64,000 nucleotides of DNA from Marivita sp. (GCF_022763305.1 NZ_JALEGT010000041.1:62001-126000), one strand, 5' to 3'. Positions 774 to 11,691 are shown, numbered from the stretch's first letter. Notes: generated by a model not told the origin, from the letters alone. Numbers and translations are program-made.

Positions 774-823
774 TTTAGCTACCCTTCCAGATAAGCGCCC
801 CTCGTTGGGGAGGGGTGTCCCAC
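774..823 (-). promoter_or_regulatory. serC leader RNA hairpin containing the integration site
   Basis: On the minus strand the serC 5' leader begins GTGGGACACCCCTCCCC and folds into a 6-bp hairpin, CCCCTC-CCCAAC-GAGGGG, followed by a GGAAGG Shine-Dalgarno and the serC ATG. The hairpin and its position upstream of serC resemble the alphaproteobacterial serC leader motif known from comparative genomics (recalled, not searched). The C-rich arm could instead pair with GGAAGGGT over the Shine-Dalgarno with one mismatch, so a switch is conceivable. The 25-bp att repeat covers the 5' half of this leader. Confidence 0.6.
799..823. repeat. attL: left 25-bp direct repeat of the integrated element
   Basis: A 25-bp sequence (core CCTCGTTGGGGAGGGGTGTC) is repeated exactly at 11667-11691. 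The two copies bracket the whole phage-like gene block, and the integrase gene ends 7 bp before the right copy. Joining the two outer flanks across one copy restores a normal serC leader and serB-serC intergenic region. This is the expected product of site-specific integration. Confidence 0.9.
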
Positions 824-857
824 GAATCGGATACCCGAATCCCAAGAAAATATGCAA
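824..857 (-). promoter_or_regulatory. Element-encoded candidate promoter for serC at attL
   Basis: On the minus strand, TTGCAT (857-852) and TATCCG (833-828), separated by 18 bp, stand just upstream of the att core. The first T of TTGCAT is 34 bp from the start of GTGGGAC. In the displaced host sequence at the other end, TTGCGC is also exactly 34 bp from the same GTGGGAC. The -10 match is weak, so promoter activity is inferred from the matched spacing. Confidence 0.45.
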
Positions 858-875
858 GTAATAAAACGCCCTATC

Positions 876-911
876 ATGCAGACCAATGCAGTCTTTTGCA
901 GAACGATGCAG
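876..911. repeat. Four 10-bp-phased ATGCAG repeats beside attL
   Basis: WTGCAG occurs at 876, 886, 896 (as TTGCAG) and 906, exactly 10 bp apart and therefore on one face of the helix. A related ATGCAA is at 852. The array lies about 50 bp inside the element from the att core, where integrase arm sites or excisionase sites are normally found. The protein bound is unknown. The AlpA/Xis-like product at 10461 is the natural candidate. Confidence 0.5.
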
Positions 912-982
912 GAACAAATGTTTCCGATTGGCACAAAACTGACACAGCAGGTTCTGCCAATGTTCCCGCGCTCACAAAAGAA

Positions 983-1015
983 AACCCCGGCGCGACGGCA
1001 ATCGCAACCGGGGTT
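983..1015 (-). terminator. Rho-independent terminator on the minus strand, facing serC
   Basis: AACCCCGG (983-990) pairs perfectly with CCGGGGTT (1008-1015) across a 17-nt loop. On the minus strand the stem is followed by TTTTCTTTTG, a good U-tract. On the plus strand the tail is only TTAAAAG. It would stop antisense transcription leaving the element toward serC. The remaining 824-1113 interval holds the candidate serC promoter and the phased repeats, and no gene that I can support. Confidence 0.6.
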
Positions 1016-1113
1016 AAAAGCGCATGTGAAGCTACCCAACTTCCCGGACACGATAGCCCGGTTTGGGCCGGTGCGCCAGCCATAATCCTGCGGCATTTCT
1101 GCGGGGTGGCGGT

Positions 1114-1911
1114 ATGACGATCCCGTTCAACATCTTCCCGGTGGGGCCTGACAAGGCCCCGCTAATCAAGGGCTGGCAAGAGGCCGCGACCCGCGACCCT
1201 GAGACCATCGCCGAATGGCAGGCGCAAGGCGTCCGGGCATGGGGCATCCCGACCGGCGCGCGCAACGGTCTGTTTGTGATCGACCTGGACGTGGACAAGG
1301 ACACGGGCGAGCGGATAGGGCGCGATAGCTTGCTGGCACTGCCGCGCTATGCGGACCTGTATGACCATGCCTTTGTCGCCACGCCCTCAGGTGGGCGGCA
1401 CATCTACTGCCAGCACTTCGACGGGGCGCGCAACAGCACGTCCAAGATCGGTCCCAAGATCGACACTCGCGGGGAAGGCGGCTACGTGGTCGCCCCCGGC
1501 TCTCAGGTTGCGGGCGGCTTCTATGTCGGCAGCGTTCCCGAAGTCCTGCCCCCTGTCCCGATGGGCTTGCGGGCGATGCTGCTGCACACGCCGACCGCGC
1601 CCCAGCGGACCTTTGACCGCCTGACCCCCACGGGCGAGGTTGAGGAACTGCTGGGGCACATTTCACCGGACCTGTCCTATCAGGATTGGGTGTCCGTCCT
1701 CATGGCGCTGCACGACCGCTACGGCGGCTCTGAGGAAGGGCTGGCGCTTGCGGATCGGTGGAGCGCGGGCGGGTCCAAGTATCGCAAGGGCGAGGTTGCC
1801 GCCAAGTGGCGCAGCTTCAAGCGCTGCGGCGTGTCCTGGGCGACCATCCCGGCGCTGGCCCGCCAGAACGGGGCTGACCTCTCTGACATTGCGCGGAGGT
1901 GGGCGGCATGA
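1114..1911 (+). CDS. Bifunctional primase/polymerase (prim-pol) with PriCT-like C-terminus
   Basis: This is probably the element's replication primase. The 265-residue product (MTIPFNIFPVG...) has the prim-pol fold signatures: the metal-binding DxD in FVIDLDVDK near residue 55, the SGGRHIYC motif near residue 95, and a glycine-rich GEGGYVVAPGS. Its last 80 residues (SYQDWVSVLMALHDRYGG...AAKWRSF) look like a PriCT domain. The ATG at 1114 is preferred over the track start at 1063 because homologues begin near the IPFNIFPV segment; the upstream Shine-Dalgarno is poor. It overlaps the next gene by ATGA. A prim-pol beside a helicase is typical of satellite replication modules. Confidence 0.8.
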   Translation: MTIPFNIFPVGPDKAPLIKGWQEAATRDPETIAEWQAQGVRAWGIPTGARNGLFVIDLDVDKDTGERIGRDSLLALPRYADLYDHAFVATPSGGRHIYCQHFDGARNSTSKIGPKIDTRGEGGYVVAPGSQVAGGFYVGSVPEVLPPVPMGLRAMLLHTPTAPQRTFDRLTPTGEVEELLGHISPDLSYQDWVSVLMALHDRYGGSEEGLALADRWSAGGSKYRKGEVAAKWRSFKRCGVSWATIPALARQNGADLSDIARRWAA

Positions 1912-2978
1912 CTGTGATTAACATGGGCGATATGCGCCGGTCCCGCGCGTCCGAGATTGAAAACCGCCTCGTGAGCCTTGGGGCAATCGAGGCGGTGTTG
2001 ACCAGTAACTACATGGTCAAGGGCTGGTTGGACCGAAATTGCCTTTCGATGCTCTACGGGCCGTCCAACGCGGGCAAGACGTTCGTGGCTTTAGACATTG
2101 CCATGCACATCGCGGCGGGCCAGACGTGGCGCGGCTTGCGGGTGAACGGCGGACCGGTTCTATACATCGCGGCTGAGGGCGGGGCGGGCATCCGCAACCG
2201 CCTTGCAGCGATCAAGCGTGACAAGCCGGATATGCGCAATGCGCCGTTTACGCTCTTGCCTGTCGGGCTGGACCTGCATGGGCAGGGCGATGCGCTTGCA
2301 GTTTGCGAGATCATGCCTGATGCAGATCCTGCCCTTGTCGTGATTGATACTCTCGCGCGGTCTATGGGCACCGGCGACGAGAACACCGCGAAAGACGCGG
2401 CCATGTTCGTGCGCAACTGCGACCTGATCCGCGAGGCAACAGGCGCTCATGTCATGGTGATCCACCACACCGGCAAGGATGAGGACCGGGGCGCACGTGG
2501 TTCGTCTGCCCTGCGGGCGGCGGTGGATAACGAGATACAAGTTACCGCCGATGGCGAGATCATATCTCGCAAGCAACGCGATCAAGAACCGCCTTTACCG
2601 CTACATTTCACTCTGCGGTCTGTGGTGCTGGGTGTCGATGAAGACGGCGACCCCGTGACAAGCGCCGTGGTGGATGAAGCCGAACCGCCCAAGAAAGAAC
2701 GCAAGCCCCTGACTGGCAAGAACGAGGTGGCAATGCAGGCGCTGCAAGACGCCTTGCGCGACCATGGCGAGACGAGAACGGGCAAAATGTATCCGTCCAA
2801 TCGGAAGGTTGTGCACGTGGATCATTGGCGCGCGGCCTGTGACGCCCACGGATTGACGAAGGGTGTCAGCGATAGCGCGGCTCGAACTGCATTCATGCGC
2901 GCCAAGGTCAAGCTGATGGACATGGATGAGGTGCGCGAGTGGGGCGACCATGTTTGGAGGGTTCAGGATGATGATTGA
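1908..2978 (+). CDS. RepA-like hexameric helicase (AAA/RecA-fold ATPase)
   Basis: Probable replicative helicase partner of the upstream primase. The Walker A motif is GPSNAGKT near residue 50 and the Walker B motif is ALVVIDTLAR near residue 145. A RecA-like VMVIHHTGKDEDRGARGSSAL segment follows, as in plasmid RepA and phage-type AAA_25 ATPases. The ATG at 1908 has GGAGG at 1895 with proper spacing and overlaps the upstream stop. The track start is an upstream in-frame GTG at 1899. The C-terminal third (from about residue 240) is charged and probably the DNA- or primase-interacting part. The gene runs directly into the GTCAC repeat cluster. Confidence 0.8.
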   Translation: MTVINMGDMRRSRASEIENRLVSLGAIEAVLTSNYMVKGWLDRNCLSMLYGPSNAGKTFVALDIAMHIAAGQTWRGLRVNGGPVLYIAAEGGAGIRNRLAAIKRDKPDMRNAPFTLLPVGLDLHGQGDALAVCEIMPDADPALVVIDTLARSMGTGDENTAKDAAMFVRNCDLIREATGAHVMVIHHTGKDEDRGARGSSALRAAVDNEIQVTADGEIISRKQRDQEPPLPLHFTLRSVVLGVDEDGDPVTSAVVDEAEPPKKERKPLTGKNEVAMQALQDALRDHGETRTGKMYPSNRKVVHVDHWRAACDAHGLTKGVSDSAARTAFMRAKVKLMDMDEVREWGDHVWRVQDDD

Positions 2979-3192
2979 CCGTCACGAACGTCACAAGCCG
3001 TCACAGTGCGTCACAAGTGCAGGCCAGATTTACCGTCACGAACGTCACACACCTCTAGAAGGTGTGACGATTGTGACGCTGGCGACGATGGACGCTGATC
3101 TGGTCCCAATGCCCCAGATTGGAGGTGCTGGGGGGGCCGCGGGGCGGGGTCTTCCTTTCTCTCTCCCAAAAAAATCTGGGGAGGATAGCTGA
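2968..3192 (+). CDS. Possible small ORF across the repeat cluster (doubtful)
   Basis: An open frame of 74 codons starts at ATG 2968 inside the helicase end and stops at 3192, sharing bases with the terminase ATG (TGATG). The product (MMIDRHERHKPSQCVTS...) is largely dictated by the GTCAC repeats, giving RHERH twice, and ends in a glycine-rich segment. It does not look like a small terminase: there is no helix-turn-helix and it is too short. The stop-start coupling is the only argument for translation. I would treat it as non-coding unless homologues are found. Confidence 0.2.
   Translation: MMIDRHERHKPSQCVTSAGQIYRHERHTPLEGVTIVTLATMDADLVPMPQIGGAGGAAGRGLPFSLPKKSGEDS
2978..3077. repeat. Iteron-like GTCAC cluster with dyad: candidate satellite origin
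   Basis: GTCAC begins at 2981, 2990, 3000, 3010, 3035 and 3044, with the inverse GTGAC at 3064 and 3073. Most spacings are 9-10 bp. An 18-bp unit, ACCGTCACGAACGTCACA, occurs twice (2978-2995 and 3032-3049). A dyad CACACCT-ctaga-AGGTGTG (3048-3066) divides direct from inverted copies. The cluster lies directly after the primase and helicase genes and before terminase. That position fits an iteron origin for the element's replication, or a cos/packaging site. Confidence 0.5.
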
Positions 3193-4724
3193 TGGCCAGG
3201 GCATCGAAAGAGGCGGCGGCGGCACTGCGGTTCCTTCCCAAGCTGGTGGTCCCTGAGGGCCGTCTTGCTGGCAAGCGGGTCAAGCTGGCCACGTATCAGA
3301 AAGAATTTGTACGCGGCGCTTTCGCCGATGGCATCGAGGCCGGGGTGTTGTCGATCGGTCGCGGCAACGCAAAGACGGCGCTTTCGGCTGGCATCGCGCT
3401 TGGGCATCTCATGGGCGAGATTGCGCCTCAGCCGAAACGCGAGATCATTTTCGCGGCTCGTAACCGCGACCAAGCCAAGACTGCTTTCGGGTTTCTGCTG
3501 GGTTTCATCGAAGGTCTGCCAGAGGATGAGCAGGCACAATTCACGATCCGGCGGGGCAGCAAGTTGGAAGTCGAGACGGCGGAAAACGGCGGCGGTCTGG
3601 CGCGGGTTATCGCGGCGGATGGCAAGTCAATTCTTGGCGGCGCTCCGACGCTGGCCATTCTGGACGAACGGGCGGCATGGGAACGCGAAAAGGGCGATGC
3701 TCTGGAGAACGCGATCTTGTCGGGTCTTGGCAAGCGTGACGGGCGGGCGTTGATTATTTCAACGTCGGCACCGGATGACGCAAACACCTTCAGCAGGTGG
3801 TTGGATGAACCGCCACCCGGCACCTATGTGCAGGAACACCGCCCGGACCCCGGCTTGCCCCCTGACGATCTGGAAAGCCTGCTGGTGGCGAACCCCGGCG
3901 CGGCTGAGGGCATCGGACCTTCTGCGGAATGGCTTACGGCGCAGGCACGGCGGGCGATTGCACGTGGCGGCTCTGCCCTGTCCAGTTTCCGCAACCTGAA
4001 CCGGAACGAGCGTGTCGCGTCCGACAATCGCTCTGTCCTTCTGACGGTTGACGAATGGCTTGGGTGCGAGGTCGCGCCTGACGATCTGCCCGTGCGTGAG
4101 GGTCCAGTTGTCATGGGTGTGGACCTTGGCGGGTCGCGCAGCATGTCGGCGGCGGCGCTCTACTGGCCAGAGACGGGCCGCTTGGAATGTGTCGGGGCCT
4201 TCCCCTGCAATCCCGGTCTTGCGGATCGTGGGCAAGCTGACGGCGTGTCTGGCCGCTATGTCGAGATGCGCGACCGAGGAGAACTCGTGACCATGGGTGA
4301 CACGACCGTGCCCGTGGGTCGGTTCCTTGCCAGCGTTGTCGAGCGGTTGAACGGGCAAGCCCCGGCGGCAATCGCGGGTGATCGGTTCCGCCATGCTGAG
4401 TTTCTTGAGGCGCTGCGAGACGCGGGTCTAGAGCGTGTGCCGTTCATTTGGCGCGGGTTCGGATGGAAAGACGGCTCCGAGGACATCGAACGGACGCGGC
4501 GCGCAGTTTTTGAGGGGCAGGTGCGCACGGTGCCGTCCCTGCTACTGCGATCTGCCTTTGCTGACGCAATCACACTTGTTGACCCGGCTGGCAATCACAA
4601 GCTGGCGGCGGGGCGCAGTACGGGCCGGGTGGACCCGGTGGCCGCAACCGTTGTTGCCGTCGCTCAAGGGCAGCGCATGAAGCGCGCGCCAAAACCACAT
4701 TCGGGGAGAGTAGCATGGGGCTGA
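3192..4724 (+). CDS. Phage terminase large subunit
   Basis: The motor and nuclease that packages DNA into the prohead. The product has 510 residues, a normal size for the family. The N-terminal ATPase has a terminase-type Walker A, GRGNAKTAL, near residue 55, and a Walker B, LAILDERAAW, near residue 158. The ISTSAPDD segment is the coupling motif. The nuclease domain starts near VVMGVDLGGSRS (residue 310), whose Asp is the likely first metal ligand. The ATG at 3192 is preceded by GGGGAGG. The gene overlaps the next by 10 bp. No recognisable small terminase precedes it, which is unusual for a full phage. Confidence 0.9.
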   Translation: MARASKEAAAALRFLPKLVVPEGRLAGKRVKLATYQKEFVRGAFADGIEAGVLSIGRGNAKTALSAGIALGHLMGEIAPQPKREIIFAARNRDQAKTAFGFLLGFIEGLPEDEQAQFTIRRGSKLEVETAENGGGLARVIAADGKSILGGAPTLAILDERAAWEREKGDALENAILSGLGKRDGRALIISTSAPDDANTFSRWLDEPPPGTYVQEHRPDPGLPPDDLESLLVANPGAAEGIGPSAEWLTAQARRAIARGGSALSSFRNLNRNERVASDNRSVLLTVDEWLGCEVAPDDLPVREGPVVMGVDLGGSRSMSAAALYWPETGRLECVGAFPCNPGLADRGQADGVSGRYVEMRDRGELVTMGDTTVPVGRFLASVVERLNGQAPAAIAGDRFRHAEFLEALRDAGLERVPFIWRGFGWKDGSEDIERTRRAVFEGQVRTVPSLLLRSAFADAITLVDPAGNHKLAAGRSTGRVDPVAATVVAVAQGQRMKRAPKPHSGRVAWG

Positions 4725-5053
4725 AATACGCCGCCCATCGGTTGATATATCAATTCGGGCAAGTTGGAAAAATCGTCAAACCGGGTGAGCCAACGGGGCC
4801 GGTCTTTGCGCCTATTCCAGGCGAACCTACGGAGCACACCGTAGCTGTCGCTTTGACGGATTACACGCATGAAGAAAGGGCGAACATGGCTATCTCCGAG
4901 GAGATGATGCGCGTCTACATGGCCCCTTCTGAGATCGTACCGACGAACGCCGATACACTTCTGATCGGAGAAAATGAGTATTCGATTATTTCAGTGAAGA
5001 CCGCGTTCAAGGCGAACATTGTGCTCTACCACGAATTGCAGGTGCGCCGATGA
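4715..5053 (+). CDS. Small head-closure/head-tail joining-like protein
   Basis: 112 residues, overlapping terminase by 10 bp and the HNH gene by ATGA. The C-terminal half (EEMMRVYMAPSEIVPTNADTLLIGENEYSIISVKT...VLYHELQVRR) resembles the beta-barrel head-closure proteins of HK97-like phages, which have a similar NADTL...YSI pattern and a terminal YELQVRR-like strand. Such proteins sit under the portal and seal the filled capsid. The assignment rests on pattern and context, not on a catalytic motif, so it is moderate. Confidence 0.5.
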   Translation: MGLKYAAHRLIYQFGQVGKIVKPGEPTGPVFAPIPGEPTEHTVAVALTDYTHEERANMAISEEMMRVYMAPSEIVPTNADTLLIGENEYSIISVKTAFKANIVLYHELQVRR

Positions 5054-5373
5054 GCAAGAGAAGTGAATTCGCGCGGCATAGCGCCAAGATCATTCGCGGC
5101 CCCCGGTGGAAGGCGCTCAGAATGCAGGCGCTTGAGCGTGACGACTGGCGTTGCGTCCAGTGTGGAACGCGCAAGGGCCTTGAGTGCGATCATATCGAGC
5201 CGGTCAAGACGCATCCGCAACTGGCCTACGTCCTGAGCAATTTGCAGATCCTATGTGGAGCCTGCCACGCGAGGAAAACCCGAATTGAGGTGGGCCACAA
5301 AGCCCTGACCCCAAAACGCCAGCAATGGCGCGATCTGCTGCGCGATATGCAGCGAAACCCTATCGAGCAATAG
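5050..5373 (+). CDS. HNH endonuclease
   Basis: 107 residues with a classic HNH nuclease: WRCVQCG (first CxxC), the CDHIEPVK H-containing strand, SNLQILCGACHARKT (N and the second CxxC) and a final His. In HK97-type and capsid-forming satellite packaging systems a small HNH protein works beside the large terminase and is needed for cleavage at cos sites. Its position inside the packaging block supports that role. The ATG overlaps the upstream stop (ATGA). It could otherwise be a homing-type nuclease, but its conserved company argues for packaging. Confidence 0.85.
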   Translation: MSKRSEFARHSAKIIRGPRWKALRMQALERDDWRCVQCGTRKGLECDHIEPVKTHPQLAYVLSNLQILCGACHARKTRIEVGHKALTPKRQQWRDLLRDMQRNPIEQ

Positions 5374-5382
5374 GAGAACATC

Positions 5383-6639
5383 ATGCTTGATTCTGTGAAA
5401 ATCCAACGTCGCCAGAGTGAAATTCGCCAGCAATTGGCGGAACTGGTGGGCAAGGATAAACCGACTGAAGACGAAACCCGTTCCATGGAAACACTGGACG
5501 CCGAATATCGGTCCAACGAAACCCGCTATCGGGCGGCGCTGGTGGCAGAAGACGACGAACGCCGCGAGGCTGGAGCAGAACTTGAGACACGTTCTGATCG
5601 TGAGTGGTCCGAACTGGCATCTCGCTTTGAAGTCCGTCAAGTGGCGCTTGCCCTGGACGAAGGCCGCGCCCTGTCGGGTCAAACGGCTGAAGTGGTGGAG
5701 GAACTTCGGAGCGCCGGCGGTTTCCAAGGCATCCCGGTTCCGCTTGAGGCTCTGGAAACACGCGCTGGTGAAACACTGGCGGGCGGTGTGCCTGACCCTA
5801 TCCGCACAATGCCGACGATTGATCGTCTGTTTGCGGCATCGTCGGCGACTCGCATGGGCGCGCGTATGATCCAAGTTGGCACGGGTGAGATTGAATATCC
5901 CGTCGGCACTGGTGGCGCACAACCGGGCTGGGCTGGGTCTGAGACTGGCGACGTTCCGGGGCCGCAAGCCTATACAACTGTTGATCGTCCCATGCGTCCT
6001 GACTACACGCTTGGCGTCCAGATGAAAATCACGCGCAAGGCTTTGAAGCAGGCGGGCGCAGGTTTGGAACAAGCCGTTCGTCGGGATATGTCAGCGGCAA
6101 TCCAGCAAGAGGTTGACCGCGTTATCTTCCAAGGTTCCGGGTCTGGTGGTGAGCCTTTGGGCATCTTTCCGGGCGCGTCCACCTACGGCATCACTGAGAC
6201 GGCGATTGACGCGGCGGCGTCCTATGCGGCGTTTCGTGCGGCGGCTGTGCGTTTCATGACGGCGAACGCGGCGAATAGCTTGGGTGCTATCAATCTGTTG
6301 CTGCGTCCTGAAGTCTTTGACGGCATGGATGACGACTTGTTGACGGGCACGGCTGTTTCCGAATGGGATCGGCTTACCGCCAAGATCGGCAACGTAGTGT
6401 TGACAACCAACGGCATCCTTGCCCCCGCTGGCGGTCCCCCGGTGGAGAGCACGGCGCTGTTGACGACGGCAACCAACGGTGTGGCGCCTGTCTTCTGCGG
6501 CATGTGGGGAGCGGTGGACATGATCCGCGATCCGTTCAGCGATGCGAAATCCGGTCAACTTCGCCTGACCGCGCTTACCACAATGGACGTGACTGTGGCG
6601 CGTGGTGTGCAACTTGAAATCCTGACCGGGGTGCAGTGA
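5383..6639 (+). CDS. Major capsid protein, HK97 fold
   Basis: 418 residues. The first 110 or so are a charged coiled-coil delta domain (RRQSEIRQQLAELVGKDK...), which acts as scaffold and is removed by the protease. The rest reads as an HK97 coat protein, with PMRPDYTLGVQMKITRKALKQ and RRDMSAAIQQEVDRVIFQGSGSGGEPLGI as family landmarks, and ends TVARGVQLEILTGV. The start ATG has AGGAGA upstream. It forms the icosahedral shell. It lies before the protease, the reverse of the usual portal-protease-capsid order. Confidence 0.92.
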   Translation: MLDSVKIQRRQSEIRQQLAELVGKDKPTEDETRSMETLDAEYRSNETRYRAALVAEDDERREAGAELETRSDREWSELASRFEVRQVALALDEGRALSGQTAEVVEELRSAGGFQGIPVPLEALETRAGETLAGGVPDPIRTMPTIDRLFAASSATRMGARMIQVGTGEIEYPVGTGGAQPGWAGSETGDVPGPQAYTTVDRPMRPDYTLGVQMKITRKALKQAGAGLEQAVRRDMSAAIQQEVDRVIFQGSGSGGEPLGIFPGASTYGITETAIDAAASYAAFRAAAVRFMTANAANSLGAINLLLRPEVFDGMDDDLLTGTAVSEWDRLTAKIGNVVLTTNGILAPAGGPPVESTALLTTATNGVAPVFCGMWGAVDMIRDPFSDAKSGQLRLTALTTMDVTVARGVQLEILTGVQ

Positions 6640-7247
6640 TGCTGACCGGCTTTGCAGATGGCGGTCTGGAACTACGCAAACGGGCATCCGGCGCTCTGAC
6701 GCTGCAAGGCCGGTTCCCTTACAACAAACGCGCGGTCCTGTCCGATGGTGGCAGGACCGGGCGACCCCGCAAAGAGGTTATCGCCTCACGCGCATTCGCC
6801 TATCGGGTGGAGCGTCCGAACGAGGACATCCACCTGTTGATCGGGCATAGCTATGACCGGCCCCTTGCATCGCGCGGGGCTGGCACACTGGACCTGAAAG
6901 ACAGTGACGATGCTCTGACATTCACCGCGTCAATCACTGAGGAAATGCAAGAGGTCAGTTTTGTGCGCGACTTTCTCGCGGCTTTCCGCGCGGGTCTGAT
7001 CGTCGGTATCAGTCCCGGCTTTCGGATACCGCCAGAACGCGCAGTAGCTGAGGCTGAGAGGGTGGAAGAGGAGGACCCTTCGGAGGGCATGGCGCTGATC
7101 CGAACGATCCTCGCGGCGCTGCTGTACGAGATCAGCGTTGTGACGCGACCCGCCTATGATGAAACCCAAATTGAAGAACGCAACTGGCAACCTGGCCGGG
7201 TGATCCTGCCCGTGCGCGTTCATCCGTCTGCCCGGTGGAGGGCGTGA
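6639..7247 (+). CDS. HK97-type prohead maturation protease
   Basis: Serine protease that cleaves the capsid delta domain during maturation. The product has 202 residues. The likely catalytic His is in LLIGHSYDRPLA near residue 70 and the catalytic Ser in AGLIVGISPGF near residue 125. The ALLYEISVVTRPAY strand is the standard family ending of the fold. The ATG at 6639 overlaps the capsid stop as TGATG, so I use it over the track's GTG at 6636. Translation is probably coupled to the capsid gene. Confidence 0.88.
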   Translation: MLTGFADGGLELRKRASGALTLQGRFPYNKRAVLSDGGRTGRPRKEVIASRAFAYRVERPNEDIHLLIGHSYDRPLASRGAGTLDLKDSDDALTFTASITEEMQEVSFVRDFLAAFRAGLIVGISPGFRIPPERAVAEAERVEEEDPSEGMALIRTILAALLYEISVVTRPAYDETQIEERNWQPGRVILPVRVHPSARWRA

Positions 7248-7249
7248 CC

Positions 7250-7792
7250 ATGACGATTGATCTGATCAAACAATTCGAGGCGGTCCCGACGGCATATCCG
7301 GCGGCACCGTCTGGCCTATCGGCTGAGGCGGCGGCGCTTGATCCTGACATGATCTGGGCGCGGATCGAGGCTTATATTGCGCACCGATGGACCCCGCGCC
7401 AAGTGATTTGGATTGTTGAAGGTGACGGCGATTGGTGCCCGAACTTGGCCCCGCTTGAAGTGACAGCAGAGGAAATGTGGAACGGCACTGCATGGGTGTC
7501 AGCGACCGTCTACGCCTCGCCATATGGCGGCTATCGCCTGACTCAGGCGGGGCTTTTCCGCTTCACTGGCACTGTCGGTGCAAACGCTGGCGACGTGCCT
7601 GCGGCTGTCTTTGAGGCGTTCAAGCGGTTGGCATCGTACTACGCCGACTGTGACGACCGGGCCGGGGCGAATTCGGTTTCCGAACGTCTGGGCGATCTGG
7701 AAACAAGTGTCACACGCAACCCCGCATGGATGGCGCGCGCAATGCAGAATAGCGGCGCGGCTGATCTGTTGCGCCCATATCGGAGGGCCTGA
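7250..7792 (+). CDS. Head-tail connector, gp6-like
   Basis: 180 residues. The C-terminal half (AVFEAFKRLASYYAD...SVSERLGDLETSVTRNPAWMARAMQNSGAADLLRPYRRA) is the pattern of gp6-like DNA-packaging/connector proteins, which form a ring under the portal and normally end in a LLRPYR-type tail. The N-terminus has hydrophobic and aromatic strands I cannot assign. The ATG at 7250 follows GGTGGAGG with 8-nt spacing, so I prefer it to the track's GTG at 7235. It lies between the protease and the portal gene. Confidence 0.7.
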   Translation: MTIDLIKQFEAVPTAYPAAPSGLSAEAAALDPDMIWARIEAYIAHRWTPRQVIWIVEGDGDWCPNLAPLEVTAEEMWNGTAWVSATVYASPYGGYRLTQAGLFRFTGTVGANAGDVPAAVFEAFKRLASYYADCDDRAGANSVSERLGDLETSVTRNPAWMARAMQNSGAADLLRPYRRA

Positions 7793-7794
7793 GG

Positions 7795-8847
7795 ATGTGG
7801 CCATTCAAACGAAAAGAGAAGATCGAAACCCGTTCAAGCGGCACCGGATACACAACGCAAGTGATGCAGGCGCGCGCCGATTACATCACGGGCGTTGACG
7901 GTGTTGCCGAACTCACGGGCACCGTTCAAGGCTGTGTGAGCCTGTGGGAGGGCGGTCTAAGCCTTGCCGATGTGGACGGCACCGACATGCTGACCCCGTT
8001 CCACCTTGCGCTTGCAGCGCGTGCTCTGGCGCTCCGAGGTGAGTGTGTCTTCTACATGGCTGGTGATCGGCTCATTCCTGCGAGTGACTGGGATTTGACG
8101 ACGCGCTTTACCCGGCCTGTGGCCTACCGTTTGGGCCTGCCAGATACCGGCGGCGGCAAGTCGGTCACGGCGCTGGCGGCTGAGGTGCTGCATTTCAGGA
8201 TCGGCGCAGATGTGAACATGCCGTATGTCGGTCAATCGCCACTTAGACGGGCACGGCTGACGGCGGGCTTGCTGCAAGTGATCGAGATGGCATTGCAGGA
8301 GGTGTACGCCAATGCGCCGCTGGGATCGTCGGTCATTCCCATGCCTGAGCAACCGGAAACCGATATGAACGATCTGGCCCGTGGGTTCCGCCAGTTTCGC
8401 GGCAAGGTGCTCGTGCGCGAGTCGGTGCACGTGGCGGCGGCGGGCGGTCCTGCGCCTCAGACGGATTTAAAGCCGAACGACATTAGCCCGGACTTGTCGC
8501 GGTCTATGACCAAGGAGTCTCTGGCATCGGCGCGGGCATCAATCGAGATGGTGTATGGCGTCCTGCCCGGCCTGAGCAATCCTTCCACAACCGGGCCCAT
8601 GGTGCGCGAGGCGCAACGGCATCTCGCGCAGTGGGCGCTTATGCCGGTGGCGGCCATGATTGCGCAAGAGGCGTCCGACAAGCTGGGAGCGCCTGTCGCC
8701 CTGGACGTGATGCGGCCGCTGCAAGCCTTCGACGCTGGTGGCCGTGCTCGTGCCCTGTCGGCAATCGTTCAAACACTGGCACTGGCGAAAGAGGCGGGTG
8801 TTGATCCTGACACTGCCATGAAGCTGGTGGACTGGGATAGCGTGTAG
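7795..8847 (+). CDS. Phage portal protein, HK97 family
   Basis: Forms the dodecameric DNA entry channel at one capsid vertex. The product has 350 residues. Landmarks are MWPFKRKEK at the start, the VQGCVSLWEGG helix, a WDLTTRFTRPVAYRL segment, EVLHFRIGADVNMPYVGQSPLRRAR, the central LARGFRQFRGKVLVRESVHV region and the clip/stem part around RSMTKESLASARASIEMVYGVLPGL. It is the last gene of the morphogenesis operon and is followed by a strong terminator. Placing portal last is the opposite of lambda- and HK97-type order. Confidence 0.88.
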   Translation: MWPFKRKEKIETRSSGTGYTTQVMQARADYITGVDGVAELTGTVQGCVSLWEGGLSLADVDGTDMLTPFHLALAARALALRGECVFYMAGDRLIPASDWDLTTRFTRPVAYRLGLPDTGGGKSVTALAAEVLHFRIGADVNMPYVGQSPLRRARLTAGLLQVIEMALQEVYANAPLGSSVIPMPEQPETDMNDLARGFRQFRGKVLVRESVHVAAAGGPAPQTDLKPNDISPDLSRSMTKESLASARASIEMVYGVLPGLSNPSTTGPMVREAQRHLAQWALMPVAAMIAQEASDKLGAPVALDVMRPLQAFDAGGRARALSAIVQTLALAKEAGVDPDTAMKLVDWDSV

Positions 8848-8964
8848 CCTTCTGCGCGCTTGGGCAGGTTGCGCCCTGTGGTCAGACGCCAAAGCAACCT
8901 CGTTAGTCGGTGAGTGGATAAACCCCGACATTGCACGGTCCATCCTCCTTTGGGCGCGGTGCTG

Positions 8965-9001
8965 GCCCGTGGCGTCTGGTGTTTCGCCACGGGCTATTTT
9001 T
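8965..9001 (+). terminator. Rho-independent terminator ending the head operon
   Basis: GCCCGTGGCG (8965-8974) pairs perfectly with CGCCACGGGC (8985-8994) across a 10-nt loop, followed by TATTTTTG. This separates the replication and head operon from the control module. The stretch 8848-8964 before it holds nothing I can identify. Confidence 0.85.
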
Positions 9002-9005
9002 GATC

Positions 9006-9233
9006 CGACCGCCACTGGCGGAGGAATACGACGCTGCGCAGGAACGCGGCGAAGCACCTGTGCGTGGTGGAGACCGAAAGTCAGATCAAAGGGGAAGCGA
9101 TGCCCCTTTGATTTCACCGGACGACATAGGCGGAAAAGATGCCTTGAAAGATTATCGCCGCTTGCGCGACGCCGAAAATGCAGACCTTGGCCTTCGCCGC
9201 GACGAAATCCACGAGGCTCGCGGGCTATTTTTT
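9006..9233 (+). pseudogene. Gene remnant with ParB-like LAEEYDAAQERGE signature
   Basis: In frame with the track ORF at 8931, this stretch reads RPPLAEEYDAAQERGEAPVRGGDRKSD, later LRDAENADLGLRRDEIHEAR. These phrases recall ParB/phage-type regulatory proteins of Rhodobacteraceae, where the EYDAAQERGE and DEIHEAR...RDAE blocks occur in a longer protein. Here there is no convincing start, the blocks appear in an altered order, and the tail runs into the antisense repressor gene. I read it as a decayed fragment after the head-operon terminator. A short functional protein is possible but unlikely. Confidence 0.35.
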
Positions 9234-9446
9234 AAGCCTCACGCCAGCGCCGCCGCCATTCTCTGCGATGAATTCTACCCCGGCTTGTTCAAGGGCCGTG
9301 CGGATGATCTGGACCGTGGCGGGCTTCAATTCTTCGCCACGTTCAAGACGGGATATGGTATTGGGCGAAATGCCCGCCATGTCTGCCAACTCGCGCAAGC
9401 CTAGTCCTGTTGCCGCGCGGGCCATTTTGCATTGTGTGGCGTTCAT
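9225..9446 (-). CDS. Small XRE-type repressor (CI/Cro-like)
   Basis: 73 residues, nearly all helix-turn-helix: LRELADMAGISPNTISRLERGEELKPATVQIIRTALEQAGVEFI. There is no dimerisation or peptidase domain, so it cannot be a RecA-cleaved CI repressor. It is transcribed away from the Tat gene and the regulators, and its promoter region holds two related dyads. It is the probable maintenance repressor of the element. In satellites such repressors can be removed by helper-phage proteins rather than by SOS, which fits the missing cleavage domain. Confidence 0.8.
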   Translation of the reverse strand: MNATQCKMARAATGLGLRELADMAGISPNTISRLERGEELKPATVQIIRTALEQAGVEFIAENGGGAGVRLKK

Positions 9447-9448
9447 TT

Positions 9449-9508
9449 GGTAGCCTCGCTACTTTTTTTGTTTGACTGTTAATAGGCTCCAATGGTAGCC
9501 CTGCTATC
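9449..9508. promoter_or_regulatory. Paired operators between repressor and Tat gene
   Basis: Two related dyads lie in the 83-bp divergent gap: GGTAGCctcGCTAC (9449-9462) and GGTAGCcctGCTAT (9494-9507). Their shared GTAGC-N3-GCTA form and 45-bp separation (centre to centre) suggest binding sites for the adjacent XRE repressor. TGCTAT in the second dyad may serve as a -10 element for the rightward promoter. Confidence 0.55.
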
Positions 9509-9529
9509 ACAGTAACACAATCGGAGAAC

Positions 9530-9796
9530 ATGACAATGTCCAAAGACCGCGCCTGCGCGAACAACCCCGCTTTGTCCCGTCGAGCCTTTGTTGCAGGACT
9601 GGCACCTGCTGTACTTGCGCCAATGAGTGCAGCGGCAATGACCAGTACCACACCCTCAGTCGCCGAACATGTGGAGCGTCTTTTGTCTTCTGTCGTTCCG
9701 CACCATCACCAAGATTATCAGATTGTAAGCAAAGCTGATCTGCAAGCGTTGTGCAGCGCGGCCAATGTCGAGTGGCGCGGGCATTGGGGTGAATGA
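9530..9796 (+). CDS. Small Tat-signal protein of unknown function
   Basis: 88 residues. Residues 14-37 form a twin-arginine signal, LSRRAFVAGLAPAVLAPMSAAA, so the product is probably exported folded to the periplasm as about 50 residues (TSTTPSVAEHVERLLSSVVPHHHQDYQIV...). CGGAG precedes the ATG. The mature part has a three-His run and one Cys, but no family I recognise. It is the first gene of the rightward control operon, directly under the putative repressor. Exclusion of other phages is a guess from position only. Confidence 0.65.
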   Translation: MTMSKDRACANNPALSRRAFVAGLAPAVLAPMSAAAMTSTTPSVAEHVERLLSSVVPHHHQDYQIVSKADLQALCSAANVEWRGHWGE

Positions 9797-9802
9797 AAAG
9801 TG

Positions 9803-9850
9803 TTGACCGTGTGAACATCTCACAGTACCAATGTCGTGAGATGTTCACAC
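9803..9850 (+). promoter_or_regulatory. Promoter with 15-bp-arm perfect palindrome
   Basis: TTGACC (9803-9808) is followed after 17 bp by TACCAA (9826-9831). GTGTGAACATCTCAC (9809-9823) is repeated exactly inverted at 9836-9850 with a 12-nt spacer, so the operator overlaps the promoter. Each arm is itself a near-dyad (TGTGA-N5-TCACA). The MerR-like regulator encoded immediately downstream is the likely binder. The palindrome also argues that this regulator starts after it, at 9862. Confidence 0.6.
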
Positions 9851-9861
9851 GCGATGATGAT

Positions 9862-10461
9862 ATGCCACGGCAGTTGCCGAAATATCTGGCCGAATATTCG
9901 GCTTCAGAGGTGAGCTCTGTCGTGGGCATTTCGGCTCACAATCTGAGAGATTGGAGGCGACGTGGTTTGCTAATCAACTACGGAGAGCAGGGCGAAAACA
10001 AAGTCTGGCGATACTCCGTTCTTGATCTGACTGCGCTTTGGGTTGTTAAAAACCTGAACGATCTGGCCGAGTTTTCCCGCGCAAGGGGTGTTGCGTACTT
10101 CGTTCTTTCCAGCGTTTCACTGGCGAAATTTAAGCTTGGTATCAAACACTACGATTACGCCTTAAGCGAAATTGATCTGGGTGATGAATGCATTTTCATC
10201 GGTCATTATCCCGGAGGACACCAAAGCGTACTAAAGCTGAGATCCTTCGCCAGCGCACCGAAAGGCTTCATAAGAGCCGAGGTTTTCAATATCTCTGAGA
10301 TGTTCTCGTCAATGCCTGTTGATTTGAAGGAAGCTGTGTTCACTGCATCCTCAAGCAACCTCGAGCATTACCCAGAAAGGGGCGAGAAAGTCACGCGCGG
10401 AAAAGAAGTTGCGAAAGCGCTTTCCGAGAACCGTCCACAGCAAACGCCGAAGGGTGCATAA
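9862..10461 (+). CDS. MerR-like DNA-binding regulator
   Basis: 199 residues from ATG 9862. The longer reading from ATG 9793, which overlaps the Tat gene stop, would put the operator palindrome inside the coding region. The N-terminal 65 residues contain a MerR-type winged helix: YSASEVSSVVGISAHNLRDWRRRGLL...RYSVLDLTALWVVKNLND. The remaining 130 residues (ISEMFSSMPVDLKEAVF... near the end) match no effector domain I know. It is the probable second regulator of the lysis/lysogeny-like switch, driving the xis-int genes downstream. The stop overlaps the next start (TAATG). Confidence 0.6.
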   Translation: MPRQLPKYLAEYSASEVSSVVGISAHNLRDWRRRGLLINYGEQGENKVWRYSVLDLTALWVVKNLNDLAEFSRARGVAYFVLSSVSLAKFKLGIKHYDYALSEIDLGDECIFIGHYPGGHQSVLKLRSFASAPKGFIRAEVFNISEMFSSMPVDLKEAVFTASSSNLEHYPERGEKVTRGKEVAKALSENRPQQTPKGA

Positions 10462-10808
10462 TGTCCCGTCCGGCCCTGCCCCTCTACACCACGCCTGAGG
10501 AACTCGCCGCGCATCTCGGCGCGTCCGAGCGTTTCGTGCGTGATGAGGTTCGGGCGCTTGGGTGTTTTGCGAAGATCGGCGCGCGGGTCATAATGCGGGA
10601 ACATCACGTTGACGCCTTCATGGAGGCAATGGAATGTCGCTCACACTCTACCGCCGGGGCCAAATCTGGCACTACCGAGGAACGGTTGCCGGTAGGCGAC
10701 TCCGAGGCTCTACAGGCACGGCTGACAAGAAAATCGCCGAACGCATCCGCGCGGAAAAAGAGGCCGAAGCGTGGCAATGTCGTTTCGATGGGCCGGGGGC
10801 ACGGTTGA
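10461..10808 (+). CDS. AlpA/excisionase-like HTH protein
   Basis: 115 residues. The first 55 form a helix-turn-helix of the excisionase/AlpA type: YTTPEELAAHLGASERFVRDEVRALGCFAKIGARVIMREHHVDAFMEAM, with the typical R-I-R strand before the last helix. The basic C-terminal tail (RKSPNASARKKRPKRGNVVSM) is translated from DNA that also encodes the integrase N-terminus in another frame. The start overlaps the upstream stop. Likely roles are the recombination directionality factor or, as AlpA is in PICIs, the activator of integrase. The phased ATGCAG array at attL is a candidate target. Confidence 0.65.
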   Translation: MSRPALPLYTTPEELAAHLGASERFVRDEVRALGCFAKIGARVIMREHHVDAFMEAMECRSHSTAGAKSGTTEERLPVGDSEALQARLTRKSPNASARKKRPKRGNVVSMGRGHG

Positions 10809-11659
10809 CCATGGCCAAAGCATTCATTGCATACCTGGACGGCGGCGGCGAAGACCGCTTTGTTGCCAAGCTGAACGCTCATTGGGGCAACAAGCTGGTG
10901 TCCGAGATCACGCCGGACATGATCCACCGGGCAGCGCCGAAAATCTATCCCGGCTGTACTGGCGCGACATGGAACCGCCAAGTGATTGCCCCGACTATTG
11001 CAGCAATCAATCTCTGCGCCGAACGGGGCTGGTGTAGTCCGATTAAGGCCAAGCGTTACAAAGTCAATGCAAAGACGAAAGTCCCGGCTGATCTGGCGTG
11101 GGTTAATGCCTTCGCTTCTCAGGCTTGCCAAGATGGTCTTGTTCATTTGGCGGCGATGGCAGTGTTCATGTTCGGCACGGGCGCGCGCGTAGGTGAAGCA
11201 ACCGCACTCATATGGTCTGACGTTGATTTGGACAATGCCAAGGCGACAATCCACCAGACCAAGATTGACGACACGCGCAAGGCTCACTTGCCGCAACAGG
11301 TGCTTACCGCTCTACGCAACATCCCGTCGAATCGTGCCCCTGACGATCTGGTGTTTGGCTACGCCGGTCGGGGCAGTGTGACGAAGGTTTGGAACAACGT
11401 GGCAGCGCGCGCCGGGATCGAGCCGTTGACACCGCATTGTTGCCGTCACGGCTTTGCGACGACGATGATGCGCAAGGGCATCGACGTGAAAACTATTGCC
11501 AAGGCTGGTGGGTGGAAGGACGCCGCAACAGTGCTGCGCACCTACGCTCACGCCCTTGACGATAAGACCGTGACAGACGCGGTTTTTGACACACCAGTGA
11601 CACAAGGTCAAAACACTGGTGACGTAACTAACTCAAACAAAAGGAAAAAACGCGCATGA
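10634..11659 (+). CDS. Tyrosine recombinase (integrase)
   Basis: 341 residues. The N-terminal arm-binding and core-binding parts begin MSLTLYRRGQIWHYRGTVAG. The catalytic domain shows Arg in FGTGARVGEATAL (near residue 190), H-x-x-R in TPHCCRHGFATTM (near 275), and the nucleophile Tyr in DAATVLRTYAHALD (near 310). GGAGG precedes the ATG by 7 nt. It overlaps the xis-like gene by 175 bp in another frame and stops 7 bp before attR, as integrases usually lie beside the att site. It inserts the element into the serC leader. Confidence 0.92.
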   Translation: MSLTLYRRGQIWHYRGTVAGRRLRGSTGTADKKIAERIRAEKEAEAWQCRFDGPGARLTMAKAFIAYLDGGGEDRFVAKLNAHWGNKLVSEITPDMIHRAAPKIYPGCTGATWNRQVIAPTIAAINLCAERGWCSPIKAKRYKVNAKTKVPADLAWVNAFASQACQDGLVHLAAMAVFMFGTGARVGEATALIWSDVDLDNAKATIHQTKIDDTRKAHLPQQVLTALRNIPSNRAPDDLVFGYAGRGSVTKVWNNVAARAGIEPLTPHCCRHGFATTMMRKGIDVKTIAKAGGWKDAATVLRTYAHALDDKTVTDAVFDTPVTQGQNTGDVTNSNKRKKRA

Positions 11660-11666
11660 CCGCTTA

Positions 11667-11691
11667 CCCTCGTTGGGGAGGGGTGTCCCAC
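11667..11691. repeat. attR: right 25-bp direct repeat
   Basis: Exact copy of 799-823. On the minus strand it reads GTGGGACACCCCTCCCCAAC, the 5' end of the displaced serC leader. Beyond it, to the right, is host DNA of the old serB-serC intergenic region. The hairpin arm CCCTC/GAGGG is kept in this copy. Confidence 0.9.

Follow-up and report, generated by a model that had tools for sequence, protein, structure and literature searches.

The window analysed here is a 64,000-nucleotide stretch of a Marivita sp. genome (NZ_JALEGT010000041.1:62001-126000). It carries a 10,868-bp insertion in the intergenic region between two genes that we read as serC (minus strand) and serB (plus strand). The insertion is bounded by a perfect 25-bp direct repeat, and its features are listed in Table 1, where protein families were named by Pfam and PHROGs. 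A first-pass annotation, made from the sequence alone, had proposed a capsid-forming phage satellite at this locus. The prim-pol, helicase, TerL, HNH protein, capsid, protease, repressor, MerR and AlpA/Xis regulators and integrase on its gene list all returned family matches, and its head-closure-like protein matches phrog_161. Family matches are weak or absent for the portal and connector that it also named; here the predicted structures agree with it.

Table 1. Features of the Marivita sp. element (positions counted from the first nucleotide of the window).
Feature	Position	Strand	Basis
attL, 25-bp direct repeat in the serC/serB intergenic region	799-823		repeat search, empty-site comparison
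Bifunctional primase-polymerase (Prim-Pol + PriCT-2)	1114-1911	+	family match
RepA-like AAA_25 replicative helicase	1908-2978	+	family match
GTCAC-type repeats and near-palindrome CACCTCTAGAAGGTG, probable replication origin	2973-3090		repeat family D3; putative function
Conserved DNA block, core TGGTCCCAATGCC at 3101-3113, candidate packaging (cos) site	about 3098-3190	+	
Terminase large subunit (TerL), HK97 type	3192-4724	+	family match and profile against 6z6d
Head closure protein Hc1	4715-5053	+	phrog_161, 6e-11
HNH endonuclease, packaging-associated by analogy	5050-5373	+	family match; present in mapped relatives
Major capsid protein, HK97 fold, conserved N-terminal region	5383-6639	+	family match
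S78 prohead protease	6639-7247	+	family match
Head-tail adaptor (connector)	7250-7792	+	AlphaFold2 pLDDT 91; Foldseek to phage/GTA neck proteins
Portal protein	7795-8847	+	weak family matches; Foldseek to HK97/GTA portals
Cro/CI-type (HTH_3) repressor	9225-9446	-	family match
Small protein, Tat-type signal	9530-9796	+	read from sequence; recurs in related elements
MerR-type regulator (MerR_1)	9793-10461	+	family match; probable start near 9862
AlpA/Xis-like excisionase-regulator	10461-10808	+	family match
Tyrosine integrase	10634-11659	+	family match
attR, 25-bp direct repeat	11667-11691		repeat search

Two start positions are corrected from an earlier reading, probably to 1114 for the prim-pol and to 6639 for the protease. 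The TerL profile of the family matches the solved TerL chain 6z6d at 2.8e-84. Residues D158-E159, D311 and D481 are invariant across the family, and we take them for the ATPase and nuclease centres. The 180-residue product of the adaptor gene has no family match. Its AlphaFold2 model resembles neck and adaptor proteins of phage 812, T5, phage 7-7-1 and the gene transfer agent (GTA) in Foldseek, where only the phage 812 match falls below E 0.001. The next gene is assigned as the portal by weak sequence matches together with its predicted fold, which resembles portals of phages (HK97) and of the GTA.

Three observations concern the region downstream of the portal. Between portal and repressor, positions 8931-9178 hold an open stretch without family match, and the longer frame there runs antisense into the repressor. 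The small Tat-signal protein (..SRRALLAALPASG..) is found between repressor and integrase in about 10 of 64 elements (window, L055, L056, L100, L108, L110, L114, L117, L046, L051, L200). Just upstream of the likely MerR start, a perfect 16-bp inverted repeat with a 12-nt spacer (9808-9851) forms a probable operator.

The direct repeat had been claimed from the sequence alone and was found exactly at the two places given in Table 1. Allowing up to two mismatches, the whole host genome contains those two copies only, and 12 of 12 same-genus genomes contain a single copy each. The joined flanks (432 bases) occur as uninterrupted sequence in same-genus genomes, the closest uninterrupted site being that of G397 (432/432 bases covered, 97%). 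The 10,868-bp insertion is thus real.

The element belongs to a widespread family. Among 397 genomes of the host's family, 47 carry the capsid, mostly at 54-83% identity. Scanned once each with a capsid alignment, the species-genome collection yielded 218 confirmed places and IMG/VR 540 confirmed viral contigs. Homologues are thus not confined to complete phages; such confinement is what the first-pass annotation had named as a mark of a degraded prophage. Carriers belong to Rhodobacterales, Sphingomonadales, Hyphomicrobiales and Hyphomonadales, and include Rhodobacter capsulatus DSM 1710 (L150) and a Ruegeria pomeroyi strain (L110). In the capsid tree, a fully supported group unites the window with Rhodobacterales and Sphingomonadales rows. 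The tree does not separate the four larger orders from each other, which suggests transfer of elements between orders. A relative with a capsid at 65% identity lies on NZ_CP039965.1, a 1.58-Mb plasmid-class replicon of Pseudorhodobacter turbinis, so that carriers are not chromosomes only.

The head-gene order TerL-(Hc1)-HNH-capsid-protease-(adaptor)-portal is uniform in all mapped relatives, all of which are compact head-only elements. The integrase gene varies in position, downstream or upstream. A gene layout unlike that of textbook phages had been remarked on initially; it is normal within the family, but it does differ from that of the satellite EcCIEDL933 discussed below. Likewise, the two regulators first described as extra are present by family match but ordinary for the family. 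The att-to-att size of 59 non-duplicate elements averages 10.49 kb (SD 0.53, range 9.3-12.1 kb), some of the 15-19 bp att repeats used being possibly due to chance. With att repeats of at least 17 bp only, duplicates of one genome included, the mean is 10.48 kb (SD 0.51). By their repeat sequences, many att sites coincide with the 3' end of a tRNA gene. The serC/serB site is occupied by four elements whose integrases are related, and tail genes are absent from all four. The relatives L033, L043 and L051, found at this site as the first-pass annotation had advised looking, measure 9.6-11.3 kb and are without tail or lysis genes.

Several individual members deserve description. The largest element, L064, carries an apparent inserted pair of inverted gene copies. 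L068, L069 and L070 form a deeper branch, with capsids about 30% and TerL about 26% identical to those of the window. They have the same layout and measure 10.4-10.8 kb, and the TGGTCCCAATGCC signal is absent upstream of their TerL. In L162, an IMG/VR contig, the two ends overlap by 127 identical base pairs, so that it represents a closed 10,231-bp circle. L160 and L246 were considered as concatemers and set aside, their end repeats being only 92% and 86% identical.

No tail or lysis gene was recognised among the window proteins with Pfam and PHROGs, nor any TerS model apart from an HNH-domain match. The same question was put to 144 non-core proteins, nearly all from 20 bounded elements. With the complete NCBIfam list, these gave no tail tube, tape measure, fibre, lysin, holin or small terminase. 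Among the matches listed, the matched proteins of this set correspond to replication, regulatory, connector and head-closure models, one gp10-like model and one head-spike-base model; connector and head-closure models recur. The first-pass annotation had noted the lack of tail, lysis and small-terminase genes and of space for them. Family searches find none, and the size of the element leaves no room. We take the absence of TerS as real at the sensitivity used.

A head-only gene set could also be the remnant of a prophage in which the genes for head and replication survived while those for tail and lysis disappeared. The HK97-type head genes do resemble phage genes, and TerL relatives in the phage collection are, among the matches listed, HK97-group phages at about 30% identity. 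However, decay would give varied sizes and broken genes, whereas hundreds of relatives agree in head-gene order and in size (10.5 +/- 0.5 kb). Their genes are open and the head genes are under purifying selection, with dN/dS of about 0.05-0.17 for TerL, HNH, capsid, protease and portal; values for the replication genes are 0.07-0.22. A close complete phage is also absent from the phage collection: the nearest capsids there reach at most about 30% identity, the portal is unmatched, and at the DNA level the element has nothing in common with any record. Neither broken or relaxed genes nor irregular size was thus found. We give a degraded prophage hardly any credence at this locus; for the family it is already refuted and is not a reasonable reading.

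A conserved DNA block precedes TerL. It consists of the 13-bp core TGGTCCCAATGCC, then a G-rich stretch, then a C/T-rich stretch. With up to two mismatches, 101 of 112 elements have the core. Of 110 upstream regions, 93 contain the 9-mer GGTCCCAAT exactly, whereas shuffled 9-mers average 0.37. In IMG/VR, the extended motif occurs in 16 contigs, all 16 of them family members. The block is read in different frames in different elements, LVPMP in the window and SGPNAP in L049 and L053, which indicates that DNA is conserved here and not protein. A 74-residue frame before TerL (2968-3192) was considered as a TerS and rejected, the same DNA being read in other frames elsewhere. This frame is probably part of the conserved DNA signal and not a gene.

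HK97-type TerL and HNH proteins act with cos sites, which usually lie beside terminase genes. On this ground the block is likely to be the packaging (cos) site of the family. Alternatively, the block may be a late promoter. Viral contigs show a mild enrichment of their left ends near the motif, not at a single base. A 141-bp query for a packaging site shared with phages gave chance matches only. GTCAC repeats and a near-palindrome directly precede the block and form a probable replication origin.

Hc1 and the adaptor, which form the neck to which a borrowed tail would attach, are the most divergent head parts. The best relative of Hc1 is 45% identical, with dN/dS of about 0.36, and dN/dS of the adaptor is 0.15-0.30. 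Alternative Hc1 and adaptor families are swapped between elements. Such divergence at the neck would be the expected product of exchange of helper tails.

The source of these tails might be the host's own GTA rather than an infecting phage. The single tail cluster found in the host genome is that of the GTA (L268, G000 contig C113), with baseplate 'megatron', hub, distal tail, capsid and portal genes. The one portal family searched, PF04860, gave no portal beyond this cluster, and the one tape-measure family, PF10145, gave no match in the host genome. Some family members have adaptor and Hc proteins similar to those of the GTA adaptor region (E 1e-15 and 6e-8). A homologue of the GTA head spike base (Rcc01079 family, c43) adjoins the head module in L033 and L052, which also favours this source. 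Yet the adaptor and Hc1 of the window are not of GTA-like types, and GTA-like adaptors occur in phages too. We retain GTA tails as a very improbable alternative for this satellite.

The spike-base-like c43 of L033 and L052, along with several small genes without family match, would also be compatible with an autonomous small virus that has its own unrecognised minimal tail or receptor-binding protein. Against this, no extra gene is universal across elements, no lysis gene is present, and the remaining genes are small and variable. The chance that the element is such a virus appears slight.

We conclude that the element is very probably a capsid-forming phage satellite, intact and mobile, from an alphaproteobacterial family whose genome size is fixed at about 10.5 kb. 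Among the closest described systems are the capsid-forming PICIs (cf-PICIs), which encode all capsid parts, large and small terminases and HNH, so that the helper supplies tails only (PMC10690885). Their mean size is 14 kb, and the hosts recorded for them are chiefly Enterobacteriaceae, Pasteurella, Morganellaceae and Firmicutes groups (PMC10803314). Like them, the Marivita element encodes capsid, protease, portal and head-tail connectors, a large terminase and an HNH endonuclease. It integrates site-specifically with att repeats and an integrase. It has predicted regulators of AlpA/Xis-like, CI and MerR type as in PICIs, as well as a prim-pol, and no tail or lysis genes. The small terminase of the published definition (PMC10690885) is lacking, and for this reason strict cf-PICI membership is not claimed. 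The cf-PICI-type reading of the first-pass annotation thus holds for gene content and integration but fails the strict definition on TerS.

The comparison was made in detail with EcCIEDL933 (satellite stretch L072). We take this element to lie at about 1680.3-1694.8 kb of NZ_CP008957, a position with which the gene content agrees. Like the family, EcCIEDL933 has an integrase, an AlpA-like regulator, a primase, its own capsid, protease, portal and head-tail proteins, HNH and TerL, and is without tail and lysis genes. Family profiles match its TerL (8e-28), integrase (3e-27), protease (4e-17), Hc (2e-9), HNH (8e-8) and AlpA (2e-7) proteins. Kinship of the capsids was also considered, and no profile match was detectable with EcCIEDL933 or with the GTA. 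The two differ in order and size: EcCIEDL933 is arranged capsid-protease-portal-Hc-connector-HNH-TerS-TerL in about 15 kb, whereas the present family has TerL-(Hc1)-HNH-capsid-protease-adaptor-portal in 10.5 kb. EcCIEDL933 has a TerS, whereas the family has no recognisable one.

Other tail-less or satellite systems share part of this organisation. The Vibrio satellite-plasmid cf-PISP has its own head and packaging genes and no tail, as does the family, but it is episomal with plasmid maintenance genes (PMC13230959), whereas the family integrates at att sites. The Streptomyces satellites MulchRoom and MiniFlayer also carry capsid-formation and packaging genes and use a helper, the MulchRoom particle having a small capsid with a long tail (PMC10690885). 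They have virulent helpers, direct terminal repeats and no recognised primase (PMC10690885), whereas the family has a prim-pol, a helicase and integration. Rhodobacterales GTAs share HK97-type head genes with the family, some of whose adaptor and Hc proteins are GTA-like. In contrast to the mobile, tail-less Marivita element, GTAs carry tails of their own and are no mobile elements with att boundaries; own tail genes together with a lack of att sites and integrase, as in a GTA, are not what we find here.

Integration, the empty site, gene content, the lack of tail and lysis families, constancy of size, purifying selection, the DNA block and a natural circle can be read directly from the sequences. 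For the steps beyond, namely induction, packaging at the block, particle formation, borrowed tails and the identity of the helper, we infer the following course. A helper phage or DNA damage would relieve CI/Cro- and MerR-type control. The integrase and AlpA/Xis would excise the element as a circle, which the prim-pol and helicase would replicate from the iterons just upstream of terL. TerL and HNH would recognise and cut the conserved TGGTCCCAATGCC block, and TerL would fill small heads built of the element's capsid, protease and portal. The neck would be sealed by the adaptor and head-closure proteins, and a tail from another virus would dock onto the head. After lysis of the cell by the helper, the particle would inject its DNA, which would integrate at the serC/serB att site.

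The HK97 capsid has T=7 symmetry for a genome of about 39.7 kb. By volume scaling from HK97, a 10.5-kb genome would fit a head of about T=3, and the precedent of P4 (11.6 kb, T=4) would allow T=4. A wider proposal combines an old alphaproteobacterial TerS-free lineage, packaging of 10.5 kb at a cos-like site, an unusually small T=3 or T=4 head, and tails from phages or possibly GTAs. We regard this combination as unlikely.

If the satellite reading is right, capsid-forming satellites extend to a large group of alphaproteobacteria that matters in the environment, and include a size class much smaller than the published cf-PICI average. The tight size sets a head capacity that can be tested. The missing TerS raises the question of packaging specificity, for which the conserved block offers a direct handle. 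Contigs of the family are filed as viral in IMG/VR and could pass for virus fragments. With R. capsulatus and R. pomeroyi among the carriers, the proposed cycle can be tested in familiar laboratory species.
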